Assembly (NCBI RefSeq): GCF_021134715.1
Contig: NC_060019.1
Coordinates: 6,386,001-6,450,000, forward strand
Origin: Daphnia pulex
Taxonomy: Eukaryota; Arthropoda; Branchiopoda; Diplostraca; Daphniidae
Length of the DNA: 64,000 bases
Reading direction: 5' to 3'
Below, piece after piece: positions 1-63,449 of this stretch (positions are counted from its first letter, which is position 1; each line of letters opens with the position of its first letter). The notes below the pieces were generated by a model. That model had not been told where the DNA came from, did not search any database, and worked only from the letters and a program-made list of their open reading frames with translations. A program made the position numbers and the translations under genes.

Positions 1-28
1 ATATGTATTTTTTTCGAATATGTATTTT

Positions 29-66
29 CTTGAGTCAGGTGCCTTAGACCGCTCGGCCATCCTGAC
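29..66 (-). pseudogene. tRNA-Leu 5'-exon fragment (first of 42)
   Basis: This is a 38-nt copy of tRNA-Leu(CAA) from base 1 to base 37, ending where the intron starts in the full gene. It keeps the A box but has no intron, 3' exon or B box, so it should not make a tRNA. Two bases of the anticodon stem differ from the full gene. The other 38-nt copies start at 1186, 3306, 4463, 5620, 6779, 7937, 10057, 11214, 12371, 13528, 14684, 15833, 16990, 18147, 19305, 20743, 21900, 23057, 24214, 25371, 26528, 27685, 28842, 30000, 31157, 32313, 33470, 38631, 42297, 43455, 47652, 48809, 49967, 52273, 56134, 58439 and 61916. Shorter 30-nt copies start at 39788, 40937, 51124 and 57290. All are on -. Confidence 0.9.
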
Positions 67-220
67 CTCATCAGATCTACCTAAATTCCTTTGCATTACA
101 GATGTGGGATTAAAACTCTTCTAACTCATTCAAGAGTTCCTTGTCCTAGGATGTTTATACCAGGAAACAATTGTATTATGTTGTATTGATTTGGAATATG
201 TATTTTCCCAAAGGATTTCA

Positions 221-292
221 TCTCATATTGTCTAGTGGTTAGGATACCTGGCTCTCACCCAGGAGGCCCGGGTTCATTTCCCGGTATGGGAA
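221..292 (+). tRNA. tRNA-Glu (CTC), U1
   Basis: Cloverleaf of 72 nt. The acceptor stem pairs TCTCATA with TATGGGA (one G-U pair), the A box is TAGTGGTTAGG, the anticodon loop CTCTCAC reads CTC, the T-arm follows and the discriminator is A. The T-loop reads TTCATTT, so the nearly invariant A58 of the B box is T; this class may be weak or inactive. Downstream lie T4, T4 and T5 runs within about 50 nt, good pol III terminators. The gene converges on the Gly gene of the same unit. Confidence 0.85.
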
Positions 293-651
293 AAGAGGAA
301 CCGTACAATTTTGCAAGTTTTGGCCATTTTTGTCAAATACATCTGGCAAACAGTTTCTGCGATTCCAGAACTATTGCAATCGGCTTGACTTACATACATA
401 CGAGCCAAAATCTTTCTAGTACATTAGATATACTAAGTACATCAGCATGTTTCCATCGAGACCCCTTCAGAAAATGGTTTCTTTGCAAGAAATATCGCCA
501 AGGAATAAGAAATTACATCTATGTCAATTATTCATATGTGAACGAAAAAGAGATGAACAACTATATTTTACCAAAAGAGTAACATTTGTGTAAATTGACT
601 TCAATTCCGTAGGTTGACTAGTCTGCTAAGAATTAGCAATAATAGCTAAAC

Positions 652-723
652 TGCGATGGCCGAGAATCGAACTCGAGTCAATTGCTTGGAAGGCAACTAT
701 CCTAACCACTATACCACCATCGC
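652..723 (-). tRNA. tRNA-Gly (TCC), U1
   Basis: Cloverleaf of 72 nt with acceptor GCGATGG/CCATCGC, loop CTTCCAA (anticodon TCC), B box AGTTCGATTCT and discriminator A. It matches the animal tRNA-Gly(TCC) pattern closely. Two bases differ from the array consensus (T-stem side and D-arm). There is no T4 run for about 80 nt downstream. A TGACG/CGTCA inverted repeat abuts the 5' end. Confidence 0.85.
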
Positions 724-908
724 TTGACGTAAGTTAGCGTCATCCTTTCCGTATTGTCACATCTTTTTAAATTACAGAAAATCGACCAGTATTACCACTT
801 GATGACCTTGTATCGTGGTACATTAAGCATTCTCTATCACTATATCAAAGCAATCTCTCTAATTATGTTGCAACGCGATGATCATGTGTATTCAGATAAC
901 GATATGTT

Positions 909-1027
909 TGTCAGGAGTGGGATTTGAACCCACGCCTTCATTGAAGACCAGAATACTGCAACTTCTCTTATTGAAGCAAGGATTCCGTCCTTGAGTCTGG
1001 CGCCTTAGACCGCTCGGCCATCCTGAC
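909..1027 (-). tRNA. tRNA-Leu (CAA) with intron, U1
   Basis: This 119-nt gene has an 83-nt mature part and a 36-nt intron at 954-989, placed after base 37 as in other eukaryotic Leu(CAA) genes. The acceptor is GTCAGGA/TCCTGAC, the loop CTCAAG carries CAA, the T-arm has GGGTTCAAATCCC and the discriminator is A. The intron contains a TTG that can pair with the anticodon, as expected for splicing. All stems pair. The nearest T4 run is about 125 nt downstream. Confidence 0.9.
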
Positions 1028-1378
1028 CACATCAGATCTACCTAAATTCCTTTGCCCTACAAATGTGGCATTAAAATTCTTCTAACTCATTCAAGAGTTC
1101 CTTGCCCTAGGCGAATTATACCAGGACAACAATTGTATTACGTTTTATTGCGTTTGAATATGTATTTTTTTCGAATATGTATTTTCTTGAGTCAGGTGCC
1201 TTAGACCGCTCGGCCATCCTGACCTCATCAGATCTACCTAAAATCCTTTGCATTACAGATGTGGGATTAAAACTCTTCTAACTCATTCAAGAGTTCCTTG
1301 TCCTAGGCTGTTTATACCAGGACAACAATTGTATTATGTTGTATTGATTTGGAATATGTATTTTCCCAAAGGATTTCA
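1028..1378. repeat. 196-bp tandem duplication of the Leu 5' flank (type example)
   Basis: The region between Leu and the next Glu is two diverged copies of about 196 bp in tandem. Each runs from a Leu 5' exon through a CATCAGATCTACC block to a GAATATGTATTTT block. The first copy belongs to the full Leu gene. The second begins with the 5'-exon fragment at 1186. Short units have lost one copy, as their length difference shows. Confidence 0.85.
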
Positions 1379-1450
1379 TCTCATATTGTCTAGTGGTTAG
1401 GATACCTGGCTCTCACCCAGGAGGCCCGGGTTCATTTCCCGGTATGGGAA
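1379..1450 (+). tRNA. tRNA-Glu (CTC), U2
   Basis: T58 class (T-loop TTCATTT); stems otherwise as U1. Confidence 0.85.
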
Positions 1451-1809
1451 AAGAGGAACCGTACAATTTTGCAAGTTTTGGCCATTTTTGTCAAATACAT
1501 CTGGCAAACAGTTTCTGCGATTCCAGAACTATTGCAATCGGCTTGACTTACATACATACGAGCCAAAATCTTTCTAGTACATTGGATATACTAAGTACAT
1601 CAGCATGTTTCCATCGAGACCCCTTCAGAAAATGGTTTCTTTGCAAGAAATATCGCCAAGGAATAAGAAATTACATCTATGTCAATTATTCATATGTGAA
1701 CGAAAAAGAGATGAACAACTATATTTTACCTAAAGAGTAACATTTGTGTAAATTGACTTCAATTCCGTAGGTTGACTAGTCTGCTAAGAATTAGCAATAA
1801 TACCTAAAC

Positions 1810-1881
1810 TGCGATGGCCGAGAATCGAACTCGGGTCAATTGCTTGGAAGGCAACTATGCTAACCACTATACCACCATCGC
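1810..1881 (-). tRNA. tRNA-Gly (TCC), U2
   Basis: Consensus copy: every stem pairs and both internal promoter boxes are intact. Confidence 0.92.
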
Positions 1882-2066
1882 TTGACGTAAGTTAGCGTCA
1901 TCCTTTCCGTATTGTCACATCTTTTTAAATTACAGAAAATCGACCAGTATTACCACTTGATGACCTTGTATCGTGGTACATTAAGCATTCTCTATCACTA
2001 TATCAAAGCAATCTCTCTAATTATGTTGCAACGCGATGATCATGTGTATTCAAATAACGATATGTT

Positions 2067-2185
2067 TGTCAGGAGTGGGATTTGAACCCACGCCTTCATT
2101 GAAGACCAGAATACTGCAACTTCTCTTATTGAAGCAAGGATACCGTCCTTGAGTCTGGCGCCTTAGACCGCTCGGCCATCCTGAC
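2067..2185 (-). tRNA. tRNA-Leu (CAA) with intron, U2
   Basis: Exons are consensus; one base differs in the intron. The unit is short and has no 5'-exon fragment. Confidence 0.9.
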
Positions 2186-2340
2186 CACATCAGATCTACC
2201 TAAATTCCTTTGCCCTACAAATGTGGCATTAAAATTCTTCTAACTCATTCAAGAGTTCCTTGTCCTAGGCTGTTTATACCAGGACAACAATTGTATTATG
2301 TTGTATTGATTTGGAATATGTATTTTCCCAAGCGATTTCA

Positions 2341-2412
2341 TTCCATATTGTCTAGTGGTTAGGTTACCTGGCTCTCACCCAGGTGGTCCGCGTTCAATTC
2401 CCGGTATGGGAA
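2341..2412 (+). tRNA. tRNA-Glu (CTC), U3
   Basis: The T-stem reads CCGCG/CCCGG (one mismatch) and the variable region differs. The T-loop is normal (TTCAATT). Confidence 0.8.
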
Positions 2413-2771
2413 AAGAAGAACTGGACAATTTTGCAAGTTTTGGCCATTTTTGTCAAATACATCTGTCAAACAGTTTCTGCGTTTCCAGAACTATTGCAAT
2501 CGGCTTGACTTACATACATACGATTCAAAATCTTTCTAGTACATTGGATATACTAAGTACATCAGCATGTTTCCATCGAGACTCCTTCAGAAAATGGTTT
2601 CTTTGCAAGAAATATCGCCAAGGAATAAGAAATTACATCTATGTCAATTATTCATATGTGAACGAAAAAGAAATGAACAACTATATTTTACCTAAAGAGT
2701 AACATTTGTGTAAATTGACTTCAATTCCGTTGGTTGACTAGTCTGCTAAGAAATAGCAATAATAGTTAAAC

Positions 2772-2843
2772 TGCGATGGCCGAGAATCGAACTCGGGTCA
2801 ATTGCTTGGAAGGCAACTATGCTAACCACTATACCACCATCGC
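2772..2843 (-). tRNA. tRNA-Gly (TCC), U3
   Basis: Consensus copy. Confidence 0.92.
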
Positions 2844-3028
2844 TTGACGTAAGTTAGCGTCATCATTTTCGTATTGTCACATCTTTTTAAATTACAGAAA
2901 ATCGACCAGTATTACCACTTGATGACCTTGTATCGTGGTACATTAAGCATTCTCTATCACTATATCAAAGGAATCTCTCTAATTATGTTGCAACGCGATG
3001 ATCACATGTATTCAGATAACGATATGTT

Positions 3029-3147
3029 TGTCAGGAGTGGGATATGAACCCACGCCCTCAATGAAGACCAGAATACTGCCACTTCTCTTATTGAAGCAAG
3101 GATTCCGTCCTTGAGTCTGGCGCCTTAGACCGCTCGGCCATCCTGAC
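3029..3147 (-). tRNA. tRNA-Leu (CAA) with intron, U3
   Basis: The B box reads GGTTCATATCC, so A58 is T; further changes lie near the variable arm and in the intron. Probably weak or a pseudogene. Confidence 0.75.
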
Positions 3148-3497
3148 CACATCAGATCTACCTAAATTCCCTTGCTCTACAGATGTGGCATTAAAATTCT
3201 TCTAACTCATTCAAGAGTTCCTTGCCCTAGGCGATTTATACCAGGACAACAATTGTATTACGTTCTATTGCCTTTGAATATGTATTTTTTTCGAATATGT
3301 ATTTTCTTGAGTCAGGTGCCTTAGACCGCTCGGCCATCCTGACCTCATCAGATCTACCTAAATTCCTTTGCATTACAGATGTGGGATTAAAACTCTTCTA
3401 ACTCATTCAAGAGTTCCTTGTCCTAGGATGTTTATACCAGGAAACAATTGTATTATGTTGTATTGATTTGGAATATGTATTTTCCCAAAGGATTTCA

Positions 3498-3569
3498 TCT
3501 CATATTGTCTAGCGGTTAGGATACCTGGCTCTCACCCAGGAGGCCCGGGTTCATTTCCCGGTATGGGAA
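3498..3569 (+). tRNA. tRNA-Glu (CTC), U4
   Basis: T58 class, with a D-arm change (TAGCGG). Confidence 0.8.
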
Positions 3570-3928
3570 AAGAGGAACCGTACAATTTTGCAAGTTTTGG
3601 CCATTTTTGTCAAATACATCTGGCAAACAGTTTCTGCGATTCCAGAACTATTGCAATCGGCTTGACTTACATACATACGAGCCAAAATCTTTCTAGTACA
3701 TTGGATATACTAAGTACATCAGCATGTTTCCATCGAGACCCCTTCAGAAAATGGTTTCTTTGCAAGAAATATCGCCAAGGAATAAGAAATTACATCTATG
3801 TCAATTATTCATATGTGAACGAAAAAGAGATGAACAACTATATTTTACCTAAAGAGTAACATTTGTGTAAATTGACTTCAATTCCGTAGGTTGACTAGTC
3901 TGCTAAGAATTAGCAATAATAGCTAAAC

Positions 3929-4000
3929 TGCGATGGCCGAGAATCGAACTCGGGTCAATTGCTTGGAAGGCAACTATGCTAACCACTATACCACCATCGC
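3929..4000 (-). tRNA. tRNA-Gly (TCC), U4
   Basis: Consensus copy. Confidence 0.92.
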
Positions 4001-4185
4001 TTGACGTAAGTTAGCGTCATCCTTTCCGTATTGTCACATCTTTTTAAATTACAGAAAACCGACCAGTATTACCACTTGATGACCTTGTATCGTGGTACAT
4101 TAAGCATTCTCTATCACTATATCAAAGCAATCTCTCTAATTATGTTGCAACGCGATGATCATGTGTATTCAGATAACGATATGTT

Positions 4186-4304
4186 TGTCAGGAGTGGGAT
4201 TTGAACCCACGCCTTCATTGAGGACCAGAATACTGTAACTTCTCTTATTGAAGCAAGGATTCCGTCCTTGAGTCTGGCGCCTTAGACCGCTCGGCCATCC
4301 TGAC
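4186..4304 (-). tRNA. tRNA-Leu (CAA) with intron, U4
   Basis: One change in the variable-arm region and one in the intron; stems are otherwise intact. Confidence 0.88.
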
Positions 4305-4654
4305 CACATCAGATCTACCTAAATTCCTTAGCCCTACAGATGTGGCATTAAAATTCTTCTAACTCATTCAAGAGTTCCTTGCCCTAGGCGATTTATACCA
4401 GGACAACAATTGTATTACGTTCTATTGCCTTTGAATATGTATTTTTTTCGAATATGTATTTTCTTGAGTCAGGTGCCTTAGACCGCTCGGCCATCCTGAC
4501 CTCATCAGATCTACCTAAATTCCTTTGCATTACAGATGTGGGATTAAAACTCTTCTAACTCATTCAAGAGTTCCTTGTCCTAAGCTGTTTATACCAGGAC
4601 AACAATTGTATTATGTTGTATTTATTTGGAATATGTATTTTCCAAAGGATTTCA

Positions 4655-4726
4655 TCTCATATTGTCTAGTGGTTAGGATAACTGGCTCTCACCCAGGTGG
4701 TCCGCGGTCAATTCCCGGTATGGGAA
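4655..4726 (+). tRNA. tRNA-Glu (CTC), U5
   Basis: The T-loop reads GTCAATT, so the invariant T54 is G, and the T-stem has a mismatch. Probably not functional. Confidence 0.7.
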
Positions 4727-5085
4727 AAGAAGAACTGGACAATTTTGCAAGTTTTGGCCATTTTTGTCAAATACATCTGGCAAACAGTTTCTGCGTTTCT
4801 AGAACTATTGCAATCGGCTTGACTTACATACATACGAGCCAAAATCTTTCTAGTACATTAGATATACTAAGTACATCAGCATGTTTCCATCGAGACTCCT
4901 TCAGAAAATGGTTTCTTTGCAAGATATATCGCCAAGGAATAAGAAATTTCATCTATGTCAATTATTCATGTGTGAACGAAAAAGAAATGAACAACTATAT
5001 TTTACCTAAAGAGTAACAATTGTGTAAATTGACTTCAATTTCGTAGGTTGACTAGTCTGCTAAGAATTAGCAATAATAGCTAAAC

Positions 5086-5157
5086 TGCGATGGCCGAGAA
5101 TCGAACTCGGGTCAATTGCTTGGAAGGCAACTATGCTAACCACTATACCACCATCGC
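5086..5157 (-). tRNA. tRNA-Gly (TCC), U5
   Basis: Consensus copy. Confidence 0.92.
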
Positions 5158-5342
5158 TTGACGTAAGTTAGCGTCATCCTTTCCGTATTGTCACATCTTT
5201 TTAAATTACAGAAAATCGACCAGTATTACCACTTGATGACCTTGTATCGTGGTACATTAAGCATTCTCTATCACTATATCAAAGCAATCTCTCTAATTAT
5301 GTTGCAACGCGATGATCATGTGTATTCAGATAACGATATGTT

Positions 5343-5461
5343 TGTCAGGAGTGGGATTTGAACCCACGCCTTCATTGAAGACCAGAATACTGCAACTTCT
5401 CTTATTGAAGCAAGGATACCGTCCTTGAGTCTGGCGCCTTAGACCGCTCGGCCATCCTGAC
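5343..5461 (-). tRNA. tRNA-Leu (CAA) with intron, U5
   Basis: Consensus exons; same intron variant as U2. Confidence 0.9.
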
Positions 5462-5812
5462 CACATCAGATCTACCTAAATTCCTTTGCCCTACAAATGT
5501 GGCATTAAAATTCTTCTAACTCATTCAAGAGTTCCTTGCCCTAGGCGAATTATACCAGGACAACAATTGTATTACGTTCTATTGCGTTTGAATATGTATT
5601 TTTTTCGAATATGTATTTTCTTGAGTCAGGTGCCTTAGACCGCTCGGCCATCCTGACCTCATCAGATCTACCTAAATTCCTTTGCATTACAGATGTGGGA
5701 TTAAAACTCTTCTTACTCATTCAAGAGTTCCTTGTCCTAGGCTGTTTATACCAGGACAACAATTGTATTATGTTGTATTGATTTGGAATATGTATTTTCC
5801 CAAAGGATTTCA

Positions 5813-5884
5813 TCTCATATTGTCTAGTGGTTAGGATACCTGGCTCTCACCCAGGAGGCCCGGGTTCATTTCCCGGTATGGGAA
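5813..5884 (+). tRNA. tRNA-Glu (CTC), U6
   Basis: T58 class. Confidence 0.85.
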
Positions 5885-6243
5885 AAGAGGAACCGTACAA
5901 TTTTGCAAGTTTTGGCCATTTTTGTCAAATACATCTGGCAAACAGTTTCTGCGATTCCAGAACTATTGCAATCGGCTTGACTTACATACATACGAGCCAA
6001 AATCTTTCTAGTACATTGGATATACTAAGTACATCAGCATGTTTCCATCGAGACTCCTTCAGAAAATGGTTTCTTTGCAAGAAATATCGCCAAGGAATAA
6101 GAAATTACATCTATGTCAATTATTCATATGTGAACGAAAAAGAGATGAACAACTATATTTTACCAAAAGAGCAACATTTGTGTAAATTGACTTCAATTCC
6201 GTTGGTTGACTAGTCTGCTAAGAAATAGCAATAATAGTTAAAC

Positions 6244-6315
6244 TGCGATGGCCGAGAATCGAACTCGGGTCAATTGCTTGGAAGGCAATTATGCTAACCA
6301 CTATACCACCATCGA
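6244..6315 (-). tRNA. tRNA-Gly (TCC), U6
   Basis: The first base of the tRNA is T rather than G, losing pair 1-72. One further change lies next to the anticodon stem. Confidence 0.8.
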
Positions 6316-6500
6316 TTGACGTAAGTTAGCGTCATCATTTTCGTATTGTCACATCTTTTTAAATTACAGAAAATCGACCAGTATTACCACTTGATGACCT
6401 TGTATCGTGGTACATTAAGCATTCTCTATCACTATATCAAAGCAATCTCTCTAATTATGTTGCAACGCGATGATCATGTGTATTCAGATAACGATATGTT

Positions 6501-6619
6501 TGTCAGGAGTGGGATATGAACCCACGCCTTCATTGAAGACCAGTATACTGCAACTTCTCTTATTGAAGCAAGGATTCCGTCCTTGAGTCTGGCGCCTTAG
6601 ACCGCTCGGCCATCCTGAC
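6501..6619 (-). tRNA. tRNA-Leu (CAA) with intron, U6
   Basis: T58 in the B box, and an A-A mismatch at the base of the anticodon stem (31-39). Confidence 0.72.
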
Positions 6620-6971
6620 CACATCAGATCTACCTAAATTCCCTTGCTCTACAGATGTGGCATTAAAATTCTTCTAACTCATTCAAGAGTTCCTTGCCCT
6701 AGGCGATTTATACCAGGACAACAATTGTATTACGTTCTATTGCCTTTGAATATGTATTTTTTTTCGAATATGTATTTTCTTGAGTCAGGTGCCTTAGACC
6801 GCTCGGCCATCCTGACCTCATCAGATCTACCTAAATTCCTTTGCATTACAGATGTGGGATTAAAACTCTTCTAACTCATTCAAGAGTTCCTTGTCCTAGG
6901 CTGTTTATACCAGGACAACATTTGTATTATGTTGTATTGATTTGGAATATGTATTTTCCCAAAGGATTTCA

Positions 6972-7043
6972 TCTCATATTGTCTAGTGGTTAGGATACCT
7001 GGCTCTCACCCAGGAGGCCCGGGTTCATTTCCCGTTATGGGAA
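6972..7043 (+). tRNA. tRNA-Glu (CTC), U7
   Basis: T58 class, with an extra G-to-T change at the T-stem/acceptor junction. Confidence 0.78.
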
Positions 7044-7402
7044 AAAAGGAACCGTACAATTTTGCAAGTTTTGGCCATTTTTGTCAAATACATCTGGCAA
7101 ACAGTTTCTGCGATTCCAGAACTATTGCAATCGGCTTGACTTACATACATACGAGCCAAAATCTTTCTAGTACATTGGATATACTAAGTATATCAGCATG
7201 TTTCCATCAAGACCCATTCAGAAAATGGTTTCTTTGCAAGAAATATCGCCAAGGAATAAGAAATTACATCTATGTCAATTATTCATATGTGAACGAAAAA
7301 GAGATGAACAACTATATTTTACCTAAAGAGTAACATTTGTGTAAATTGACTTCAATTCCGTAGGTTGACTAGTCTGCTAAGAATTAGCAATAATAGCTAA
7401 AC

Positions 7403-7474
7403 TGCGATGGCCGAGAATCGAACTCGGGTCAATTGCTTGGAAGGCAACTATGCTAACCACTATACCACCATCGC
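7403..7474 (-). tRNA. tRNA-Gly (TCC), U7
   Basis: Consensus copy. Confidence 0.92.
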
Positions 7475-7659
7475 TTGACGTAAGTTAGCGTCATCCTTTC
7501 AGTATTGTCACATCTTTTTAAATTACAGAAAATCGACCAGTATTACCACTTGATGACCTTGTATCGTGGTACATTAAGCATTCTCTATCACTATATCAAA
7601 GCAATCTCTCTAATTATGTTGCAACGCGATGATCATGTGTATTCAGATAACGATATGTT

Positions 7660-7778
7660 TGTCAGGAGTGGGATTTGAACCCACGCCTTCATTGAAGACC
7701 AGAATACTGCAACTTCTCTTATTGAAGCAAGGATTCCGTCCTTGAGTCTGGCGCCTTAGACCGCTCGGCCATCCTGAC
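7660..7778 (-). tRNA. tRNA-Leu (CAA) with intron, U7
   Basis: Consensus in exons and intron. Confidence 0.92.
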
Positions 7779-8129
7779 CACATCAGATCTACCTAAATTC
7801 CTTAGCCCTACAGATGTGGCATTAAAATTCTTCTAACTCATTCAAGAGTTCCTTGCCCTAGGCGATTTATACCAGGACAACAATTGTATTACGTTCTATT
7901 GCCTTTGAATATGTATTTTTTTCGAATATGTATTTTCTTGAGTCAGGTGCCTTAGACCGCTCGGCCATCCTGACCTCATCAGATCTACCTAAATTCCTTT
8001 GCATTACAGATGTGGGATTAAAACTCTTCTAACTCATTCAAGAGTTCCTTGTCCTAGGCTGTTTATACCAGGACAACAATTGTATTATGTTGTATTGATT
8101 TGGAATATGTATTTTCCCAAAGGATTTCA

Positions 8130-8201
8130 TCTCATATTGTCTAGTGGTTAGGATAACTGGCTCTCACCCAGGTGGTCCGCGGTCAATTCCCGGTATGGGA
8201 A
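8130..8201 (+). tRNA. tRNA-Glu (CTC), U8
   Basis: G54 class like U5, with a T-stem mismatch. Confidence 0.7.
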
Positions 8202-8560
8202 AAGAAGAACTGGACAATTTTGCAAGTTTTGGCCATTTTTGTCAAATACATCTGTCAAACAGTTTCTGCGTTTCTAGAACTATTGCAATCGGCTTGACTT
8301 ACATACATACGAGCCAAAATCTTTCTAGTACATTAGATATACTAAGTACATCAGCATGTTTCCATCGAGACTCCTTCAGAAAATGGTTTCTTTGCAAGAA
8401 ATATCGCCAAGGAATAAGAAATTACATCTATGTCAATTATTCATATGTGAACGAAAAAGAGATGAACAACTATATTTTACCAAAAGAGTAACATTTGTGT
8501 AAATTGACTTCAATTCCGTTGGTTGACTAGTCTGCTAAGAAATAGCAATAATAGTTAAAC

Positions 8561-8632
8561 TGCGATGGCCGAGAATCGAACTCGGGTCAATTGCTTGGAA
8601 GGCAACTATGCTAACCACTATACCACCATCGC
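8561..8632 (-). tRNA. tRNA-Gly (TCC), U8
   Basis: Consensus copy. Confidence 0.92.
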
Positions 8633-8817
8633 TTGACGTAAGTTAGCGTCATCATTTTCGTATTGTCACATCTTTTTAAATTACAGAAAATCGACCAGTA
8701 TTACCACTTGATGACCTTGTATCGTGGTACATTAAGCATTCTCTATCACTATATCAAAGCAATCTCTCTAATTATGTTGCAACGCGATGATCATGTGTAT
8801 TCAGATAACGATATTTT

Positions 8818-8936
8818 TGTCAGGAGTGGGATATGAACCCACGCCTTCATTGAAGACCAGTATACTGCAACTTCTCTTATTGAAGCAAGGATTCCGTCCT
8901 TGAGTCAGGTGCCTTAGACCGCTCGGCCATCCTGAC
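8818..8936 (-). tRNA. Chimeric tRNA-Leu (CAA), U8
   Basis: The 3' exon and intron come from a T58-type Leu gene. The 5' exon carries the two anticodon-stem differences typical of the 38-nt fragments, and the downstream flank is the fragment-type flank. This looks like the product of exchange between a Leu gene and a fragment, and it shortens the unit. The anticodon stem is mismatched, so the gene is probably inactive. Confidence 0.75.
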
Positions 8937-9091
8937 CTCATCAGATCTACCTAAATTCCTTTGCATTACAGATGTGGGATTAAAACTCTTCTAAATCATT
9001 CAAGAGTTCCTTGTCCTAGGCTGTTTATACCAGGACAACAATTGTATTATGTTGTATTGATTTGGAATATGTATTTTCCCAAGCGATTTCA

Positions 9092-9163
9092 TTCCATATT
9101 GTCTAGTTGTTAGGTTACCTGGGTCTCACCCAGGTGGTCCGCGTTCAATTCCCGGTATGGGAA
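9092..9163 (+). tRNA. tRNA-Glu (CTC), U9
   Basis: D-arm change (TAGTTG), base 32 is G, and the T-stem has the CCGCG mismatch. Confidence 0.7.
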
Positions 9164-9522
9164 AAGAAGAACTGGACAATTTTGCAAGTTTTGGCCATTT
9201 TTGTCAAATACATCTGTCAAACAGTTTCTGCGTTTCCAGAACTATTGCAATCGGCTTGACTTACATACATACGATTCAAAATCTTTCTAGTACATTGGAT
9301 ATACTAAGTACATCAGCATGTTTCCATCGAGACTCCTTCAGAAAATGGTTTCTTTGCAAGAAATATCGCCAAGGAATAAGAAATTACATCTATGTCAATT
9401 ATTCATATGTGAACGAAAAAGAAATGAACAACTATATTTTACCTAAAGAGTAACATTTGTGTAAATTGACTTCAATTCCGTTGGTTGACTAGTCTGCTAA
9501 GAAATAGCAATAATAGTTAAAC

Positions 9523-9594
9523 TGCGATGGCCGAGAATCGAACTCGGGTCAATTGCTTGGAAGGCAACTATGCTAACCACTATACCACCATCGC
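9523..9594 (-). tRNA. tRNA-Gly (TCC), U9
   Basis: Consensus copy. Confidence 0.92.
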
Positions 9595-53289: not shown

Positions 53290-53420
53290 GATTGAGTTAT
53301 ACAGTTTTATTTACAAAATAAAAACAAAACAAGAATTTCAATATTTAGTATAATGCCCTTCAGCCTGACAACAGAAGTCTAAACGAGAGACCATTGAATC
53401 AGACAATCTTTCCCAGTATC

Positions 53421-54287: not shown

Positions 54288-54336
54288 GTGCGACTTAGGT
54301 GTGGCGGAGGCTTCGCCCCGCCACCCCACGTCGCAC
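54288..54336. other. GC-rich nested hairpin
   Basis: GTGCGAC pairs with GTCGCAC, and inside it GTGGCGG pairs with CCGCCAC around a GAGGCTTCGC loop. It is the GC peak of an otherwise AT-rich element and recurs at 60070-60118. Confidence 0.75.
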
Positions 54337-54629
54337 TTCATGTTTAGATTAAGTTTTAGCAATATTTATTACTATAGTAACATGGAATTGGAAAAATTAT
54401 TAGTTACATATAAACTATAAAGAAATGGATGTGGTGTTATAGCAGTTAGATTAAACCACCGCTGAAAAAATCTTAATTCAGGCATATAACCTAAGTGATT
54501 TATGATCGGTTCCGAAATCGATACCGATGGTAGCGTCGCTAGCGATATTACCATAGATTTACTTCGTCTTTCGTTACATTGTTTGGTGTACACACCAACC
54601 GGACCACGCTTTCCCTTAGACATTATGTC

Positions 54630-54696
54630 TATGTTAGTCTAATGGTTAGCAACCCGAGCCGCTACTCGTATGGTTCGGGGTTAGAATCTCGATCAA
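54630..54696 (+). other. tRNA-like segment in the insert
   Basis: A-box-like TAGTCTAATGGTTAGC and B-box-like GGGTTAGAATCTC stand at tRNA spacing. No clean acceptor stem or certain anticodon. The second copy is at 60412-60478. Confidence 0.55.
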
Positions 54697-55599
54697 GTCA
54701 TTTAGGAAATTCAAATTTGTAACTTTTGAAAAATTACACTTATAAAACTTTCGGAGGTAAATGGAAGTGGAAGATCGGTGGTAACTCTTCACGACCGCCA
54801 AAAGATCTTGATGACCGTAGAGAGGACAAGGGAAGAAGAGAGAGATGACCCAGAGCTTCAAAATGAGTATGATCAAACATTTTTAAAATGTTCCTCAACT
54901 TCTTGGTTGATGACTAACTGTTAAAAAAAAGGGGAATAGAAATTTTACTTGATCAAAAAATTTATTAAAATCAAGATCATCATTTATTAAAAACAGTAAA
55001 CAAAAAGAGGAAATAATAAGAACAATAAAGACGAAATCGAACAAGAACAATAAAAATAAAATCAAATATCATCAAAATATCAATATCATATCATGAAAAC
55101 TTGTCTTGCTAAGGAAGATTCAAACTTTTTTTCTTTTTGTTTACACTGCTGAGCACTCACTGCACTGACAGTTGGAAGGTTAAGCAAACAAAGCGAATTC
55201 ACTAACTAGGATTCGGCAACCAGCTAGGTAACAAATACGCAAATTAAATTTTTAAAACAGTAATTAAAACAAATGAAAAAATCGTTCCGCAATGTATCAA
55301 ATTTTGACAGAATTATGTACAAAATTTGGTGACGATTGGTCATTCAGGGAAGAAACGTATAAAGGAACACTAAATGGACATTAAACCCTCTGAATTTCAC
55401 TACTAGCTACTACTACCCTACCCCCTATACCCAACACCCTATATTGTTAAGGACCTTCGTATATAAATATACCTCAGGGATAAGAAATTACATCTATGTC
55501 AATTATTCATGTGTGAACGAAAAAGAAATGAACAACTATATTTTACCTAAAGAGTAACATTTGTGTAGATTAGCTAAGAAATAGCTAAAATAGCTAAAC

Positions 55600-55671
55600 T
55601 GCGATGGCCGTGAATTGAACTCGGGTCAATTGCTTGGAAGTCAACTATGCTAACCACTATACTACAATGGC
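55600..55671 (-). tRNA. tRNA-Gly (TCC), degenerate, before U42
   Basis: Acceptor 5' side GCCATTG no longer pairs well, the anticodon stem has one mismatch and the B box is GTTCAATTC. Confidence 0.58.
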
Positions 55672-55856
55672 TTGACGTTACTTAGCGTCATCATTTCCGT
55701 ATTGTCACATCTTTTTGAATTACAGAAAATTGACCAGTATTACCACTTGATGACATTGTATCGTGGTACATTAAGCATTCTCTATCACTATATCAAAGCA
55801 ATCTCTCTAATTATTTTGCAACGCGATGATCATGTGTATTCAGAAAATGATATGTT

Positions 55857-55975
55857 TGTCAGGAGTGGGATTTGAACCCACGCCTTCATTGAAGACCAAA
55901 ATACTACAACTTCTCTTATTGAAGCAAGGATTCCGTCCGTGAGACTGGCGCCTTAGACCACTCGGCCATCCTGAC
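55857..55975 (-). tRNA. tRNA-Leu scaffold with CAC anticodon, before U42
   Basis: Loop CTCACG as at 34350; base 31 is T and the 3' side of the anticodon stem is TTTGG, so two pairs are lost. Confidence 0.65.
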
Positions 55976-56326
55976 CATATCACATCTACCTAAATTCCTT
56001 TGCCCTACAGATGTGGCATTAAAATTCTTCTAACTCATTCAAGAGTTCCTTGCCCTAGGCGATTTATACCAGGACAACAATTGTATTACGTTCTATTGCG
56101 TTTTAATATGTATTTTTTCTTAATATGTATTTTCTTGAGTCTGGTGCCTAAGACCGCTCGGCCATCCTGACCTCATCAGATCTACCTAAATTCCTTTGCA
56201 TTACAGATGTGGGATTAAAACTCTTCTAACTCATTCAAGAGTTCCTTGTCCTAGGCTGTTTATACCAGGACAACAATTGTATTATGTTGTATTGCATTGG
56301 AATATGTATTTTCCCAAAGGATTTCA

Positions 56327-56398
56327 TCCTTTACTGTCTAGTGGTTAGGATCCCTGGCTCTCACCCAGGAGGCCCGGGTTCAATTCCCGGTATGGGAA
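56327..56398 (+). tRNA. tRNA-Glu (CTC), U42
   Basis: Acceptor TCCTTTA and a D-stem change (CTGTC) give mismatches; T-arm canonical. Confidence 0.7.
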
Positions 56399-56756
56399 AA
56401 GAGGAATGTAACATTTTGCAAGTTTTGGCCATTTTTGTCAAATATGTCTGGAAAACAGTTTCTGCGTTTCCAGAACTATTGCAATCGGCTTGACTTACAT
56501 ACATACGAGCCAAAATCTATCTAGTAAATTGGATATACTAATTACATCAGCATGTTTCCATCGAGACTCCTTAAGAAAATGGTTTCTTTGCAAGAAATAT
56601 CGCCAAGGAATAAGAAATTACATCTATGTCAATTATTCATATGTGAACGAAAAAGAAATGAACAACTATATTTTACCTAAAGAGTAACATTTGTGTTAAT
56701 TGACTTCAATTCCGTAGGTTGACTAGTCTGCTAAGAAATAGCAATAATAGCTAAAC

Positions 56757-56828
56757 TGCGATGGCCGAGAATCGAACTCGGGTCAATTGCTTGGAAGGCA
56801 ACTATGCTAACCATTATACCACCATCGC
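56757..56828 (-). tRNA. tRNA-Gly (TCC), U42
   Basis: TAATGG A-box change, as U39. Confidence 0.82.
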
Positions 56829-57013
56829 TTGACGTAAGTTAGCGACATCATTTGCGTATTGTCACATCTTTTAAAATTACAGAAAATCGACCAGTATTAC
56901 CACTTGATGACCTTGTATCGTGGTACATTAAGCATTCTCTATCACTATATCAAAGCAATCTCTCTAATTATGTTGCAACGCGATGATTATGTGTATTCAG
57001 ATAACGATATGTT

Positions 57014-57132
57014 TGTCAGGAGTGGGATTTGAACCCACGCCTTCATTGAAGACCAGAATACTGCAACTTCTCTTATTGAAGCAAGGATTCCGTCCTTGAG
57101 TCTGGCGCCTTAGACCGCTCGGCCATCCTGAC
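57014..57132 (-). tRNA. tRNA-Leu (CAA) with intron, U42
   Basis: Consensus copy. Confidence 0.92.
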
Positions 57133-57474
57133 CACATCAGATCTACCTAAATTCCTTTGCCTTACAGATGTGGCATTAAAATTCTTCAAACTCATTCAAG
57201 AGTTCCTTGCCCTAGGCGATTGATACCAGGACAACAATTGCATTACGTTCTATTGCGTTTGAATATGTATTTTTTTTAATATGTATTTTCTTTAGTCAGG
57301 TGCCTTAGACCGCTCGGCCTTCATCAGATCTACCTAAATTCCTTTGCATTAAAGATGTGGGATTAAAACTCTTCTAACTCATTCAAGAGTTCCTTGTCCT
57401 AGGCTGTTTATACCAGGACAACAATTGTATTATGTTGTATTGATTTGGAATATGTATTTTTCCAATCGATTTCA

Positions 57475-57546
57475 TCCCATATTGTCTAGTGGTTAGGATA
57501 CCTGGCTCTCACCCAGGAGGCCCGGGTTCAATTCCCGGTATGGGAA
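57475..57546 (+). tRNA. tRNA-Glu (CTC), canonical, U43
   Basis: Fully canonical. Confidence 0.94.
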
Positions 57547-57904
57547 AAGAGGAATGTAAAATTTTGCAAGTTTTGGCCATTTTTGTCAAATACATCTGTC
57601 AAACAGTTTCTGCGTTTCCAGAAATATTGCAATCGGCTTGACTTACATACATACGAGCCAAAATCTTTCTAGTACATTGGATATACTAAGTACATTAGCA
57701 TGTTTCCATCGAGACTCCTTCAGAAAATGGTTTCTTTGCAAGAAATATCGCCAAGGAATAAGAAATTACATCTATGTCAATTATTCATGTGTGAACGAAA
57801 AAGAAATGAACAACTATATTTTACCTAAAGAGTAACATTTGTGTAAATTGACTTCAATTCCGTTGGTTGACTAGTCTGCTAAGAAATAGCAATAATAGTT
57901 AAAC

Positions 57905-57976
57905 TGCGATGGCCGAGAATCGAACTCGGGTCAATTGCTTGGAAGGCAACTATGCTAACCACTATACCACCATCGC
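57905..57976 (-). tRNA. tRNA-Gly (TCC), U43
   Basis: Consensus copy. Confidence 0.92.
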
Positions 57977-58161
57977 TTGAAGTAAGTTAGCGTCATCATT
58001 TTCGTAATGTCACATCTTTTTAAATTACAGAAAATCGACCAGTATTACCAATTGATGACCTTGTATCGTGGTACATTAAGCATTCTCTATCACTATATCA
58101 AAGCAATCTCTCTAATTATGTTGCAACGCGATGATCATGTGTATTCAGATAACGATATGTT

Positions 58162-58280
58162 TGTCAGGAGTGGGATTTGAACCCATGCCTTCATTGAAGA
58201 CCAGAATACTGCAACTTCTCTTATTGAAGCAAGGATTCCGTCCTTGAGTCTGGCGCCTCAGACCGCTCGGCCATCCTGAC
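58162..58280 (-). tRNA. tRNA-Leu (CAA) with intron, U43
   Basis: Same two changes as U40. Confidence 0.83.
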
Positions 58281-58627
58281 CACATCAGATCTACCTAAAT
58301 TCCTTTGCCCTACAGATATGGCATTAAAATTCTTCTAACTCATTCAAGAGTTCCTTGCCCTAGGCGAATTATACCAGGACAAAAATTGTATTACGTTCTA
58401 TTGCGTTTGAATATGTATTTTTTTCGAATATGTATTTTCTTGAGTCAGGTGCCTTAGACCGCTCGGCCATCCTGACCTCATCAGATCTACCTAAATTCCT
58501 TTATTACAGATGTGGGATTAAAACTCTTCTAACTCATTCAAGAGTTCCTTGTCCTAGGCTGTTTATACCAGGAAACAATTGTATTATGTTGTATTGATTT
58601 GGAATATGTATTTTCCAAAGGATTTCA

Positions 58628-58712
58628 TCTCATATTGTCTAGTGGTAAGGACTAGTGGTAAGGATACCTGGCTCTCATCCAGGAGGCCCGGGTTCAATTC
58701 CCGGTATGGGAA
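58628..58712 (+). pseudogene. tRNA-Glu (CTC) with 13-bp D-arm duplication, U44
   Basis: A 13-bp tandem duplication (ACTAGTGGTAAGG repeated) lengthens the D-arm and makes the locus 85 nt. The A box is doubled; acceptor, anticodon and T-arms are otherwise as in U41. A tRNA finder may call only the part from the second A box. Confidence 0.8.
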
Positions 58713-59071
58713 AAAAGGAACTGTACAATTTGGCAACTTTTGGCCATATTTGTCAAATACATCTGGCAAACAGATTCTGCGTTTCCAAAACTATTGCAAT
58801 CGGCTTGACTTACATACATACGAGCCAAAATTTTTCTAGTACATTGGATATACTAAGTACATTAGCATGTTTCCATCGAGACTCCTTCAGAAAATGGTTT
58901 CTTTGCAAGAAATATCGCCAAGGAATAAGAAATTACATCTATGTCAATTATTCATGTGTGAACGAAAAAGAAATGAACAACTATATTTTACCTAATGAGT
59001 AACATTTGTGTAAATTGACTTCAATTCCGTAGGTTGACTAGTCTGCTAAGAATTAGCAATAATAGCTTAAC

Positions 59072-59143
59072 TGCGATGGCCGAGAATCGAACTCGGGTCA
59101 ATTGCTTGGAAGGCAACTATGCTAACCACTATACCACCATCGC
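59072..59143 (-). tRNA. tRNA-Gly (TCC), U44
   Basis: Consensus copy. Confidence 0.92.
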
Positions 59144-59328
59144 TTGAAGTAAGTTAGCGTCATCATTTTCGTAATGTCACATCTTTTTAAATTACAGAAA
59201 ATCGACCAGTATTACCACTTGATGACCTTGTATCGTGGTACATTAAGCATTCTCTATCACTATATCAAAGCAATCTCTCTAATTATGTTGCAACGCGATG
59301 ATCATGTGTATTCAGATAACGATATGTT

Positions 59329-59447
59329 TGTCAGGAGTGGGATTTGAACCCATGCCTTCATTGAAGACCAGAATACTGCAACTTCTCTTATTGAAGCAAG
59401 GATTCCGTCCTTGAGTCTGGCGCCTCAGACCGCTCGGCCATCCTGAC
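59329..59447 (-). tRNA. tRNA-Leu (CAA) with intron, U44
   Basis: Same two changes as U40; no fragment follows (short unit). Confidence 0.83.
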
Positions 59448-59602
59448 CACATCAGATCTACCTAAATTCCTTTGCATTACAGATATGGCATTAAAATTCT
59501 TCTAACTCATTCAAGAGTTCCTTGTCCTAGGCTGTTTATACCAGGACAACCATTGTATTATGTTGTATTGATTTGGAATATGTATTCTCCCAAGTGATTT
59601 CT

Positions 59603-59674
59603 CCCCATATTGTCTAGTGGTTAGGATACCTGGCTCTCACCCAGGAGGCCCGGGTTCAACTCCCGGTATGGGTA
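59603..59674 (+). tRNA. tRNA-Glu (CTC), U45
   Basis: Pair 1-72 is C-T; other stems and boxes are intact (T-loop TTCAACT). Confidence 0.82.
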
Positions 59675-59886
59675 AAGAGGAATGCACAACTTTGCAAGTT
59701 TTGGCCATGTTTGTCAAATACATCTGGCAAACAGTTTCTGCGTTTCCAGAACTATTGCAATCGGCTTGACTTACATACATACGGGCCAAAATCTTTCTAG
59801 TACATTGGATATACTAAGTACATCAGCATGTTTCCATCGAGACTCCTTCAGAAAATGGTTTCTTTGCAAGAAATATCGCCAAGGAA

Positions 59887-61261
59887 CAAGATTCCTTCGG
59901 TAATATCCTTCGGTAATTTTTTTAAACGTTAAAGAGACAGAAAATAAAGGTTATGGTAGATTAATACATACTTTAACGTTTGAAAAATTCTGTTTCCCTT
60001 TATTCTCTTTCATAATTTATTCTTTATCTTTATAACTAATTGACTAATAATCTGTTAATATTATGAGTGGTGCGACTTAGGTGTGGCGGAGGCTTCGCCC
60101 CGCCACCCCACGTCGCACTTCATGTTTAGATTAAGTTTTAGCAATATTTATTACTATAGTAACATGGAATTGGAAAAATTATTAGTTACATATAAACTAT
60201 AAAGAAATGGATGTGGTGTTATAGCAGTTAGATTAAACCACCGCTGAAAAAATCTTAATTCAGGCATATAACCTAAGTGATTTATGATCGGTTCCGAAAT
60301 CGATACCGATGGTAGCGTCGCTAGCGATATTATCATAGATTTACTTCGTCTTTCGTTACATTGTTTGGTGTACACACCAACCGGACCACGCTTTCCCTTA
60401 GACATTATGTCTATGTTAGTCTAATGGTTAGCAACCCGAGCCGCTACTCGTATGGTTCGGGGTTAGAATCTCGATCAAGTCATTTAGGAAATTCAAATTT
60501 GTAACTTTTGAAAAATTACACTTATAAAACTTTCGGAGGTAAATGGAAGTGGAAGATCGGTGGTAACTCTTCACGACCGCCAAAAGATCTTGATGACCGT
60601 AGAGAGGACAAGGGAAGAAGAGAGAGATGACCCAGAGCTTCAAAATGAGTATGATCAAACATTTTTAAAATGTTCCTCAACTTCTTGGTTGATGACTAAC
60701 TGTTAAAAAAAAGGGGAATAGAAATTTTACTTGATCAAAAAATTTATTAAAATCAAGATCATCATTTATTAAAAACAGTAAACAAAAAGAGGAAATAATA
60801 AGAACAATAAAGACGAAATCGAACAAGAACAATAAAAATAAAATCAAATATCATCAAAATATCAATATCATATCATGAAAACTTGTCTTGCTAAGGAAGA
60901 TTCAAACTTTTTTTCTTTTTGTTTACACTGCTGAGCACTCACTGCACTGACAGTTGGAAGGTTAAGCAAACAAAGCGAATTCACTAACTAGGATTCGGCA
61001 ACCAGCTAGGTAACAAATACGCAAATTAAATTTTTAAAACAGTAATTAAAACAAATGAAAAAATCGTTCCGCAATGTATCAAATTTTGACAGAATTATGT
61101 ACAAAATTTGGTGACGATTGGTCATTCAGGGAAGAAACGTATAAAGGAACACTAAATGGACATTAAACCCTCTGAATTTCACTACTAGCTACTACTACCC
61201 TACCCCCTATACCCAACACCCTATATTGTTAAGGACCTTCGTATATAAATATACCTCAGGG
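59887..61261. mobile_element. Unclassified 1375-bp insert with tRNA-like segment, copy 2
   Basis: Nearly identical to 54105-55479 at an offset of exactly 5782 bp, including its hairpin and tRNA-like segment. The flanking array on the right is also shared. Confidence 0.65.
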
Positions 61262-61381
61262 ATAAGAAATTACATCTATGTCAATTATTCATGTGTGAAC
61301 GAAAAAGAAATGAACAACTATATTTTACCTAAAGAGTAACATTTGTGTAGATTAGCTAAGAAATAGCTATAATAGCTAAAC

Positions 61382-61453
61382 TGCGATGGCCGTGAATTGA
61401 ACTCGGGTCAATTGCTTGGAAGTCAACTATGCTAACCACTATACTACAATGGC
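61382..61453 (-). tRNA. tRNA-Gly (TCC), degenerate, before U46
   Basis: Duplicate of 55600. Confidence 0.58.
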
Positions 61454-61638
61454 TTGACGTTACTTAGCGTCATCATTTCCGTATTGTCACATCTTTTTGA
61501 ATTACAGAAAATTGACCAGTATTACCACTTGATGACATTGTATCGTGGTACATTAAGCATTCTCTATCACTATATCAAAGCAATCTCTCTAATTATTTTG
61601 CAACGCGATGATCATGTGTATTCAGAAAATGATATGTT

Positions 61639-61757
61639 TGTCAGGAGTGGGATTTGAACCCACGCCTTCATTGAAGACCAAAATACTACAACTTCTCTTA
61701 TTGAAGCAAGGATTCCGTCCGTGAGACTGGCGCCTTAGACCACTCGGCCATCCTGAC
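61639..61757 (-). tRNA. tRNA-Leu scaffold with CAC anticodon, before U46
   Basis: Duplicate of 55857. Confidence 0.65.
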
Positions 61758-62108
61758 CACATCAGATCTACCTAAATTCCTTTGCCCTACAGATGTGGCA
61801 TTAAAATTCTTCTAACTCATTCAAGAGTTCCTTGCCCTAGGCGATTTATACCAGGACAACAATTGTATTACGTTCTATTGCGTTTTAATATGTATTTTTT
61901 CTTAATATGTATTTTCTTGAGTCTGGTGCCTAAGACCGCTCGGCCATCCTGACCTCATCAGATCTACCTAAATTCCTTTGCATTACAGATGTGGGATTAA
62001 AACTCTTCTAACTCATTCAAGAGTTCCTTGTCCTAGGCTGTTTATACCAGGACAACAATTGTATTATGTTGTATTGCATTGGAATATGTATTTTCCAAAA
62101 GGATTTCA

Positions 62109-62180
62109 TCCCTTACTGTCTAGTGGTTAGGATCCCTGGCTCTCACCCAGGAGGCCCGGGTTCAATTCCCGGTATGGGAA
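62109..62180 (+). tRNA. tRNA-Glu (CTC), U46
   Basis: Acceptor TCCCTTA; D-stem change as U42. Confidence 0.72.
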
Positions 62181-62538
62181 AAGAGGAATGTAACATTTTG
62201 CAAGTTTTGGCCATTTTTGTCAAATATGTCTGGAAAACAGTTTCTGCGTTTCCAGAACTATTGCAATCGGCTTGACTTACATACATACGAGCCAAAATCT
62301 ATCTAGTAAATTGGATATACTAATTACATCAGCATGTTTCCATCGAGACTCCTTAAGAAAATGGTTTCTTTGCAAGAAATATCGCCAAGAAATAAGAAAT
62401 TACATCTATGTCAATTATTCATATGTGAACGAAAAAGAAATGAACAACTATATTTTACCTAAAGAGTAACATTTGTGTTAATTGACTTCAATTCCGTAGG
62501 TTGACTAGTCTGCTAAGAAATAGCAATAAAAGCTAAAC

Positions 62539-62610
62539 TGCGATGGCCGAGAATCGAACTCGGGTCAATTGCTTGGAAGGCAACTATGCTAACCACTATA
62601 CCACCATCGC
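62539..62610 (-). tRNA. tRNA-Gly (TCC), U46
   Basis: Consensus copy. Confidence 0.92.
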
Positions 62611-62786
62611 TTGACGTAAGTTAGCGTCATCATTTCCGGATATTCACATCTTTTTAAATTACAGATAATCGACCAGTATTACCACTTGATGACCTTGTAT
62701 CGTGGTACATTAAGCATTCTCTATCACTATATCACTCTAATTATGTTGCAACGCGATGATCATGTGTATTCAGATAACGATATGTT

Positions 62787-62905
62787 TGTCAGGAGTGGGA
62801 TTTGAACCCACGCCTTCATTGAGGACCAGAATACTGCAACTTTTCTTATTGAAGCAAGTATTCCGTCCTTGAGTCTGGCGCCTTAGACAGCTCGGCCATC
62901 CTGAC
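62787..62905 (-). tRNA. tRNA-Leu (CAA) with intron, U46
   Basis: One D-arm change, one variable-arm change and intron changes. Confidence 0.8.
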
Positions 62906-63060
62906 CACATCAGATCTATCTAAATTCCTTTGTCGTACAGATGTGGCATTAAAATTCTTCTAACTCATTCAAGAGTTCCTTGTCCTAGGTTGTTTATACC
63001 AGGACAACCATTGTATTATGTTGTATTGATATGGAATATGTATTTTCCCCAGCGATTGCA

Positions 63061-63132
63061 TCCCATATTGTCTAGTGGTTAGGATACCTGGCTCTCACCC
63101 AGGAGGCCCGGGTTTAATTCCCGGTATGGGAA
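63061..63132 (+). tRNA. tRNA-Glu (CTC), U47
   Basis: Canonical stems, but the T-loop is TTTAATT (C56 is T). Last tRNA of the window. Confidence 0.82.
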
Positions 63133-63449
63133 AAGAGGAATGTAAAATTTTGCAAGTTTTGGCCATTTTTGTCAAATACATCTGGCAAACAGTTTCTGCG
63201 TTTCCAGAACTATTCCAATCGGCTTGACTTACATACATACGAGCCAAAATCTTTCTAGTACATTGGATATACTAAGTACATCAGCATGTTTCCATCGAGA
63301 CTCCTTCAGAAAATGGTTTCTTTGCAAGAAATATCGCCAAGGAATAAGAAATTACATCTATGTCAATTATTCATGTGTGAACGAAAAAGAAATGAACAAC
63401 TATATTTTACCTAAAGAGTAACATTTGTGTAAATTGACTTCAATTCCGT

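Follow-up and report, generated by a model that had tools for sequence, protein, structure and literature searches.

The locus examined here raises the question of what a long tandem array of tRNA genes represents in an animal genome: a working supply of tRNA, a satellite that carries tRNA sequence as a passenger, a chromatin feature or a product of misassembly. The window, a stretch of 64,000 nucleotides of the Daphnia pulex genome (contig NC_060019.1, here C3, positions 6,386,001 to 6,450,000), is almost filled by such an array, which a sequence-only reading had described as 136 tRNA loci of three species in about 47 units. We consider it probable that this is a genuine Pol III tRNA array that grew by unequal exchange of units and blocks and is now partly decaying; it is best read as an array of the kind already known from Entamoeba, human 1q23.3 and Hydractinia.

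Array extent, unit structure and inserts

A blastn search with one unit against C3:6326001-6470000 places the array at C3:6382475-6449450, a span of 67 kb running from -3526 to 63450 in window coordinates, with its left edge beyond the window as had been proposed. The window holds about 47 head-to-tail units (GC ~38%), mostly of 1157 or 1158 bp, with the unit order Glu(+), Gly(-), Leu(-), and a local blastn census returns 136 tRNA-gene copies: 48 Glu-CTC (46 forward, one inverted at 19760 and one truncated at 58652), 44 Gly-TCC and 44 intron-bearing Leu-CAA. The earlier counts, fixed gene orientation and period of about 1158 bp are thus borne out (Table 1). Among 41 insert-free C3 units, 14 measure 1157 bp, 10 measure 1158 bp and five measure 951-962 bp, the last being short because one copy of a 196-bp sub-repeat is absent; seven further Glu-to-Glu intervals in C3 contain inserts or rearrangements. 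Rfam (RF00005) reports 134 tRNAs in the window at or above the gathering score, and ARAGORN, run in a bacterial mode that overlooks Leu genes with introns, reports 83. What TRF detects is mainly this sub-repeat, in two copies, together with short stretches repeated about twice; it shows no short tandem repeats between genes of the Entamoeba kind. Most units contain the extra copy of the Leu 5' exon, which has no B box since its 3' half is missing. For the real Leu gene, we take the exon/intron split to be that of its animal Leu-CAA homologs.

Table 1. Features of the array, in window coordinates
Feature	Position	Strand	Basis
Array part inside the window; left edge 3526 bp before it	1..63450	.	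blastn
Representative repeat unit, 1158 bp	221..1378	+	blastn, unit lengths
tRNA-Glu(CTC) of this unit, one of 48 in window	221..292	+	ARAGORN, Rfam, blastn
First T4 run after Glu, offset 16	309..312	+	
First T5 run after Gly (offset 102), by position also first T5 after Leu (offset 359)	545..549	-	
tRNA-Gly(TCC) of this unit, one of 44 in window	652..723	-	ARAGORN, Rfam, blastn
tRNA-Leu(CAA) of this unit, 36-nt intron at 954-989, one of 44 in window	909..1027	-	Rfam match
Second copy of Leu 5' exon only, ending at exon/intron border, within 196-bp sub-repeat	1186..1223	-	TRF period 196, blastn
Inverted Glu copy within a unit	19760..19830	-	ARAGORN, blastn
3.67-kb insert with reverse-transcriptase RNase H fragment (PF17917, frame 36830-37147)	34941..38609	.	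blastn, Pfam
Short element, 27-nt terminal inverted repeats containing CAGTAT, TA on both flanks	41319..41534	.	
Second copy of 3.67-kb insert, 99.4%	43965..47629	.	
Fold-back element, terminal inverted repeats (CAGTATGGTCC) related to those of 41319..41534, TA-flanked	52680..54039	.	
1.36-kb insert	54110..55464	.	
Glu copy matching from its position 12 onward only; named Leu by ARAGORN	58652..58712	+	ARAGORN, blastn
Second copy of 1.36-kb insert, 99.9%	59892..61246	.	

Inserts break the array at about 34.9-38.6, 41.3-41.5, 43.9-47.6, 52.7-54.0, 54.1-55.5 and 59.9-61.2 kb. A third copy of the 3.67-kb insert (98.6%) directly adjoins the array on the left, and a further copy of the 1.36-kb insert (99.4%) lies close to the same edge; the short element at 41.3 kb is presumably a Tc1/mariner-like MITE. 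The copy variation noted in the sequence-only reading is present, and much of it consists of tRNA-gene damage and block duplications.

A recurrent open frame over Glu and the adjoining spacer was considered as a protein gene and rejected, as the remaining units contain stops and the frame has no coding codon-position pattern. It extends for at least 119 codons from Glu in 25/41 C3 and 27/32 C8 units, a length that 6.3% of 300 simulated sequences also attain, and the one copy tested had no Pfam match. Apart from tRNAs, an Rfam search of the unit for other structured RNAs (E<=1) yielded just two hits, both scoring far under the gathering thresholds of their families.

Related arrays and dispersed genes

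The array had been called unusual; as a tandem tRNA array it is real, and it is not single. The same unit type recurs on contig C8 over about 240 kb including inserts (C8:0.67-0.91 Mb), parts of three such units lie on C11, and C10 holds a different array of five tRNA genes. A 43-nt Glu core is found with at most three mismatches at 183 places genome-wide, with exact matches on C3, C8 and C11. Outside these arrays we found 13 dispersed genes of the same isoacceptors (4 Glu-CTC, 5 Gly-TCC and 4 Leu-CAA), unlike an organisation of the Entamoeba kind, for which nearly all genes of these isoacceptors would be arrayed and none dispersed; by number, most copies are still in arrays. The five dispersed Gly-TCC genes came from a looser pattern, two canonical Gly-TCC body patterns having matched only at C8 places and nowhere outside the arrays. 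At the consensus level, array and dispersed Glu are separated by a single compensatory pair (29:41), and array Gly differs from dispersed Gly at 11 sites that include three compensated pairs and add no mismatch. Array and dispersed isodecoders can thus be told apart for both Gly and Glu.

Full units were compared between C3 (36 units) and C8 (32 units, sampled from about 55 kb of the ~240-kb locus within 80 kb taken from C8, part of which lies beyond it). Mean divergence was 3.25% within C3, 1.99% within C8 and 6.07% between them, so that units are homogenised relative to the sister array, and the C3-C8 minimum over all these full-length pairs was 4.86%. The closest unit pairs within C3 lie 1, 2, 3, 5, 8 or about 9 units apart. 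These observations bear on the reading of the array as a few real units inflated by misassembly, which is made extremely improbable by near-identical units at non-adjacent offsets, by variants and inserts specific to single units and their contexts, and by the separate, 6% diverged C8 locus, none of whose sampled full units comes closer than the above minimum. The in-window copies of the 3.67-kb insert are, moreover, 0.6% apart while the units adjoining them differ by 1.5-2%.

Gene damage and terminators

Expression would call for sound stems, anticodon, T-loop and terminator. In C3, structural damage affects the majority of Glu copies: 7/49 are intact there vs 28/36 in the C8 sample (Fisher p = 5e-9). 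Structurally intact Gly copies number 31/46 in C3 vs 27/37 in C8 (p = 0.64), and half of the Leu copies are damaged in both arrays (intact: 23/46 and 18/36). As neither Gly nor Leu differs between the arrays, decay specific to C3 is clear for Glu only.

Among the three array genes, a T4 run within 40 nt is the rule only for Glu, where the first such run lies at offset 15 or 16 in 40/49 C3 copies. It is absent from 44/46 C3 and 34/37 sampled C8 copies of Gly and from 44/46 C3 and 36/36 sampled C8 copies of Leu, which argues against normal transcription of both genes, whereas all 13 dispersed genes have a T-run terminator nearby. The first T5 run lies at offset 102 after Gly in 41/46 C3 copies and at offset 359 after Leu in 30/46. 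This run is a possible shared terminator: Leu and Gly, each without a T-run of its own, could form one Leu-Gly precursor that ends there.

These data qualify the idea of a fully working tRNA factory, in which selection for a supply of Glu-CTC, Gly-TCC and Leu-CAA would keep the copy number high. The mostly intact Glu copies of the C8 sample, the abundance of the Glu core and its exact matches on three contigs, and the long-term constraint on tRNA bodies described below would suit it, but the scarcity of intact Glu genes in C3, the missing terminators of Gly and Leu and the dispersed genes for all three isoacceptors speak against it, and we regard it as unlikely.

Divergence around the tRNA genes

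A new observation is that, between C3 and C8, the flanks of the tRNA genes diverge more than the spacer and the tRNA bodies less. Divergence was 0.035 in tRNA bodies, 0.119 in 30-bp flanks (2.3 times the spacer value), 0.120 in the Leu intron, 0.052 in the spacer and 0.063 in the dead Leu half-copy. In a circular-shift control over all 1158 offsets, a body value as low occurred in 0.5% of shifts and a flank value as high in 0.8%; several tests were made, and p values and shift fractions are nominal throughout. Differences fixed at >90% number 0 in 227 tRNA columns vs 16 in 677 spacer columns. Within C8, flanks (0.029) exceed body and spacer (both 0.018; 2.2% of shifts); within C3, flanks (0.055) exceed the spacer (0.023; 1.2% of shifts) and hardly exceed the bodies (0.045). 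The C3 body signal is weak when pooled, with 13.8% of circular shifts reaching the observed diversity (4.8% for Glu alone, which stands out there only together with the flanks), and segregating sites in C3 occupy 51/132 positions of Glu and its flanks vs 108/677 of the spacer (Fisher p = 3e-8). Constrained bodies beside divergent flanks are as expected of loci that would be transcribed and under constraint, although the spacer blocks 317-340 and 389-436 are conserved more than the tRNA bodies, so that the body/spacer contrast could in part reflect spacer constraint.

The pattern weighs on the reading as an inert tRNA-derived satellite, in which the tRNA sequence would be a passive passenger that never supplied tRNA. 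Such a satellite might show many broken gene copies, genes lacking terminators, a number of inserts and duplicated blocks, as are found here; we nevertheless think it quite unlikely, given the order of divergence from bodies through spacer to flanks, the compensatory nature of stem differences from the dispersed genes, and the half-copy, which cannot be a gene and is unprotected (between C3 and C8, 0.063 as against 0.019 in exon 1 of the Leu gene itself). A chromatin role, as boundary, insulator or replication feature, has been proposed for the human and mouse array (PMC4041453); what counts would then be the tandem Pol III sites and not their tRNA product, and the conserved spacer blocks would suit it. 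Here we hold it to be very unlikely.

Two further candidates were set aside. No strand bias in the mutation spectrum was clear by eye in C3, and the C10 array, considered by its profile as a replicate of the footprint, has raised variation near several tRNA genes but an uneven profile.

Probable origin and decay, and comparison with known arrays

Under the preferred account of a genuine, partly decaying array, unequal exchange, involving one unit or a block of them at a time, would have enlarged it, and transcription of the loci would have lasted long enough to increase mutation locally and for selection to maintain them. Redundancy, provided by the larger C8 locus and by dispersed genes with good terminators, may then have relaxed selection, most visibly on C3 Glu, so that the array would be on its way to becoming a tRNA-derived satellite, perhaps with some copies still producing tRNA. 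A bolder version is possible but doubtful: the replicate arrays would form a natural mutation-accumulation experiment of hundreds of near-identical Pol III loci with the Leu half-copy as control, in which transcription raises mutation within ~30 bp, C3 is turning into satellite, and Leu and Gly are dicistronic with one terminator.

The 1q23.3 array reportedly carries Gly, Glu and Leu isotypes, partly common with those in Daphnia. The likening to known arrays made in the sequence-only reading holds. In the excerpted accounts, tandem tRNA arrays are reported in few eukaryotes (PMC11067881, PMC4041453). The human/mouse 1q23.3 tRNA VNTR is there described with a GC-rich 7.3-kb unit, a CTCF site, five tRNA genes and 9-43 copies (Darrow & Chadwick 2014, PMC4041453). 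Compared by organisation alone, it shares with Daphnia head-to-tail units of several tRNA genes and a retroelement at the border (LTR elements on both sides there, the insert with the RNase H fragment at the left border here), while the Daphnia unit is 1.16 kb long with ~38% GC, three genes and many damaged copies. Entamoeba has several distinct kinds of unit, each holding five tRNA genes at most (Tawari et al., PMC2652664), and Daphnia likewise has at least two kinds, one on C3, C8 and C11 and another on C10; almost all Entamoeba tRNA genes are arrayed with short tandem repeats between them, whereas Daphnia has dispersed copies and the 196-bp two-copy sub-repeat instead. Tandem ncRNA arrays are also described in Hydractinia (and Nematostella), an animal case with roughly evenly spaced tRNA genes like ours; in Hydractinia they cover all 20 amino acids and other ncRNAs, unlike the three tRNA genes of the Daphnia unit, and the excerpted account makes no mention of decay as seen here (PMC11067881). 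Among the Daphnia and crustacean papers listed by search, no title or abstract opening names a tandem tRNA array there, and the word 'Daphnia' is absent from the main text of Bermudez-Santana 2010 (PMC2888827).

One unit type on several contigs with unequal damage makes mutation, selection and homogenisation at Pol III genes open to study in a single genome, and cautions that annotated Daphnia tRNA copies do not equal functional gene dosage. Thornlow et al. are said to have found in 2018 that mutation is elevated beside tRNA genes. The variable flanks and constrained tRNA bodies of the Daphnia arrays resemble such a pattern. The 2018 study is among the work cited in the excerpted text of PMC8113476. 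Unlike that pattern, the one in Daphnia is seen between tandem paralogues of two arrays, and within C3 the body of Glu varies as much as its flanks do.

Array content and related loci

The Daphnia tandem tRNA array is real, and it belongs with the tandem tRNA arrays that earlier papers describe in Entamoeba (PMC2652664), at human and mouse 1q23.3 (PMC4041453), and in Hydractinia and Nematostella (PMC11067881). Its chief novelty lies in the contrast between arrays inside one genome, rather than in the array as such. The sequence-only reading had proposed 136 tRNA loci of three species and a left edge outside the window, and both points were borne out: blastn recovered 136 copies (48 Glu, one inverted and one truncated among them, 44 Gly and 44 Leu; 134 tRNAs by Rfam), and the array, on contig C3, begins to the left of the window, which covers C3:6386001-6450000. 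Its Leu gene is a Leu-CAA with a 36-nt intron, the exon/intron split being placed after the layout of animal Leu-CAA genes. Most units also carry a second Leu 5' exon within a 196-bp sub-repeat, one copy of which is missing in 5 of the 41 insert-free C3 units.

Searches of the genome (133,188,837 bp, 13 contigs) with a single unit gave matches on C3 and C8 among the best-scored candidates. Searches with tRNA fragments, for which totals are full counts and the places named are among the matches listed, found a Gly 49-mer with up to 3 mismatches at 172 places (including C3, C8 and C11), a Glu 43-mer at 183 (its exact matches on C3, C8 and C11), and a Leu 3'-end 40-mer at 171 (with strays at C2, C7 and C3:6500590). 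The 3 kb examined on C11 hold two Glu copies and three each of Gly and Leu. A tandem array on C10 has a 1,423-bp unit unlike that of C3, and further tRNA matches on C12 and C9 point to additional tandem tRNA arrays.

Coordinates of the array, its features and other tRNA loci (C, contigs of assembly GCF_021134715.1)
Feature	Position	Remarks
C3 array	window -3526 to 63450	
Conserved spacer blocks	unit 317-340, 389-436	between Glu and Gly
Half-Leu copy	window 1186-1223	end coincides exactly with exon/intron border
Gly copy	window 32936-33007	anticodon now TCT; called Arg by ARAGORN
Frames right of array	C3:6450326-6451507	
C8 units	C8, 669-871 kb (Gly 49-mer)	units as far as 908,534; 10.8-kb break at 891-902 kb
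C10 array	C10:9815001-9885000 (examined)	Pro-TGG, Leu-AAG (GAG in some copies), Arg-TCG (+); Pro-CGG, Gln-TTG (-); 38 forward Pro-TGG starts within 70 kb
tRNA matches	C12:3983/8345; 2986649/2991011; 4982021-4984901; 5007020-5024558	evenly spaced, 4,362 bp or 1,440 bp
tRNA matches	C9:4495183-4519015	

Gene integrity and terminators

Copies were scored as intact if anticodon and T-loop were kept with no new stem mismatch; any Glu or Gly copy not 72 long was scored as not intact, as was any Leu copy in which an indel precedes the anticodon. The intact share differs between C3 and the sampled C8 units for Glu only (7/49 vs 28/36), with Gly at 31/46 vs 27/37 and Leu at 23/46 vs 18/36. Counting bases from gene end to T-run, the first T4 in C3 lies at offset 15 or 16 in 40 of 49 Glu copies, at 102 in 36 of 46 Gly copies and at 127 in 37 of 46 Leu copies. 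Judged by position (a 185-bp gap, a 72-bp gene and 102), the first T5 following Leu, at offset 359 in 30/46, coincides with the one that comes first after Gly, at 102. Among Leu copies sampled on C8, 15 of 36 have a T4 at offset 58 and 12 at 358, and all 13 dispersed genes (4 Glu, all on C10; 5 Gly, on C4 or C8; 4 Leu), a set from pattern searches that may be incomplete, have one at offset 2-9.

Divergence and array growth

We aligned 69 full units (36 from C3, 32 from C8, 1 from C11), excluding short and insert-bearing ones, and classed columns by position in the reference unit (window 221-1378), with flanks defined as the 30 bp beside a tRNA gene. C3-C8 divergence was 0.035 in tRNA bodies, 0.119 in flanks, 0.120 in the Leu intron, 0.063 in the half-Leu copy and 0.052 in spacer; across all 1158 circular mask shifts (uncorrected here and below), 0.5% gave a body value as low and 0.8% a flank value as high. 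Within C3, diversity reached 0.070 in Glu bodies and 0.055 in flanks (matched or exceeded in 1.2% of shifts) vs 0.023 in spacer, while the value for all bodies pooled was attained by 13.8% of shifts. Within C8, bodies equalled spacer (0.018) and flanks exceeded it (0.029; 2.2% of shifts). In our reading, mutation has been raised locally and the genes were under past constraint, which would now be lifted for C3 Glu; the rival explanation is constraint on the spacer. The pooled C3 value counts against our reading, as do spacer blocks whose C3-C8 conservation exceeds that of the tRNA bodies; no known RNA or protein was found in these blocks.

Among full units (C3 n=36, C8 n=32), mean divergence was 3.25% within C3, 1.99% within C8 and 6.07% between them, with a smallest C3-C8 distance of 4.86%. 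The nearest relatives of C3 units are adjacent, or 2, 3, 5, 8 or about 9 units away, as in the close units at 22093, 25564, 27878 and 31350 (0.26-0.95% apart). Inserts recur likewise: a 3.67-kb insert, which carries an RNase H fragment, has a second copy 9,023 bp away (99.4%) and another abutting the left end of the array (98.6%), and a 1.36-kb insert has one copy 5,782 bp away (99.9%) and one close to that left end (99.4%). Given this spacing of relatives and the insert copies at block offsets, we read the C3 array as having probably grown by unequal exchange of both single units and blocks. Just right of the array, frames resembling retrotransposon integrase and RNase H were noted by eye, with no Pfam match at E<=0.001. 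Two CAGTAT-ended elements lie within the array, at TA targets.
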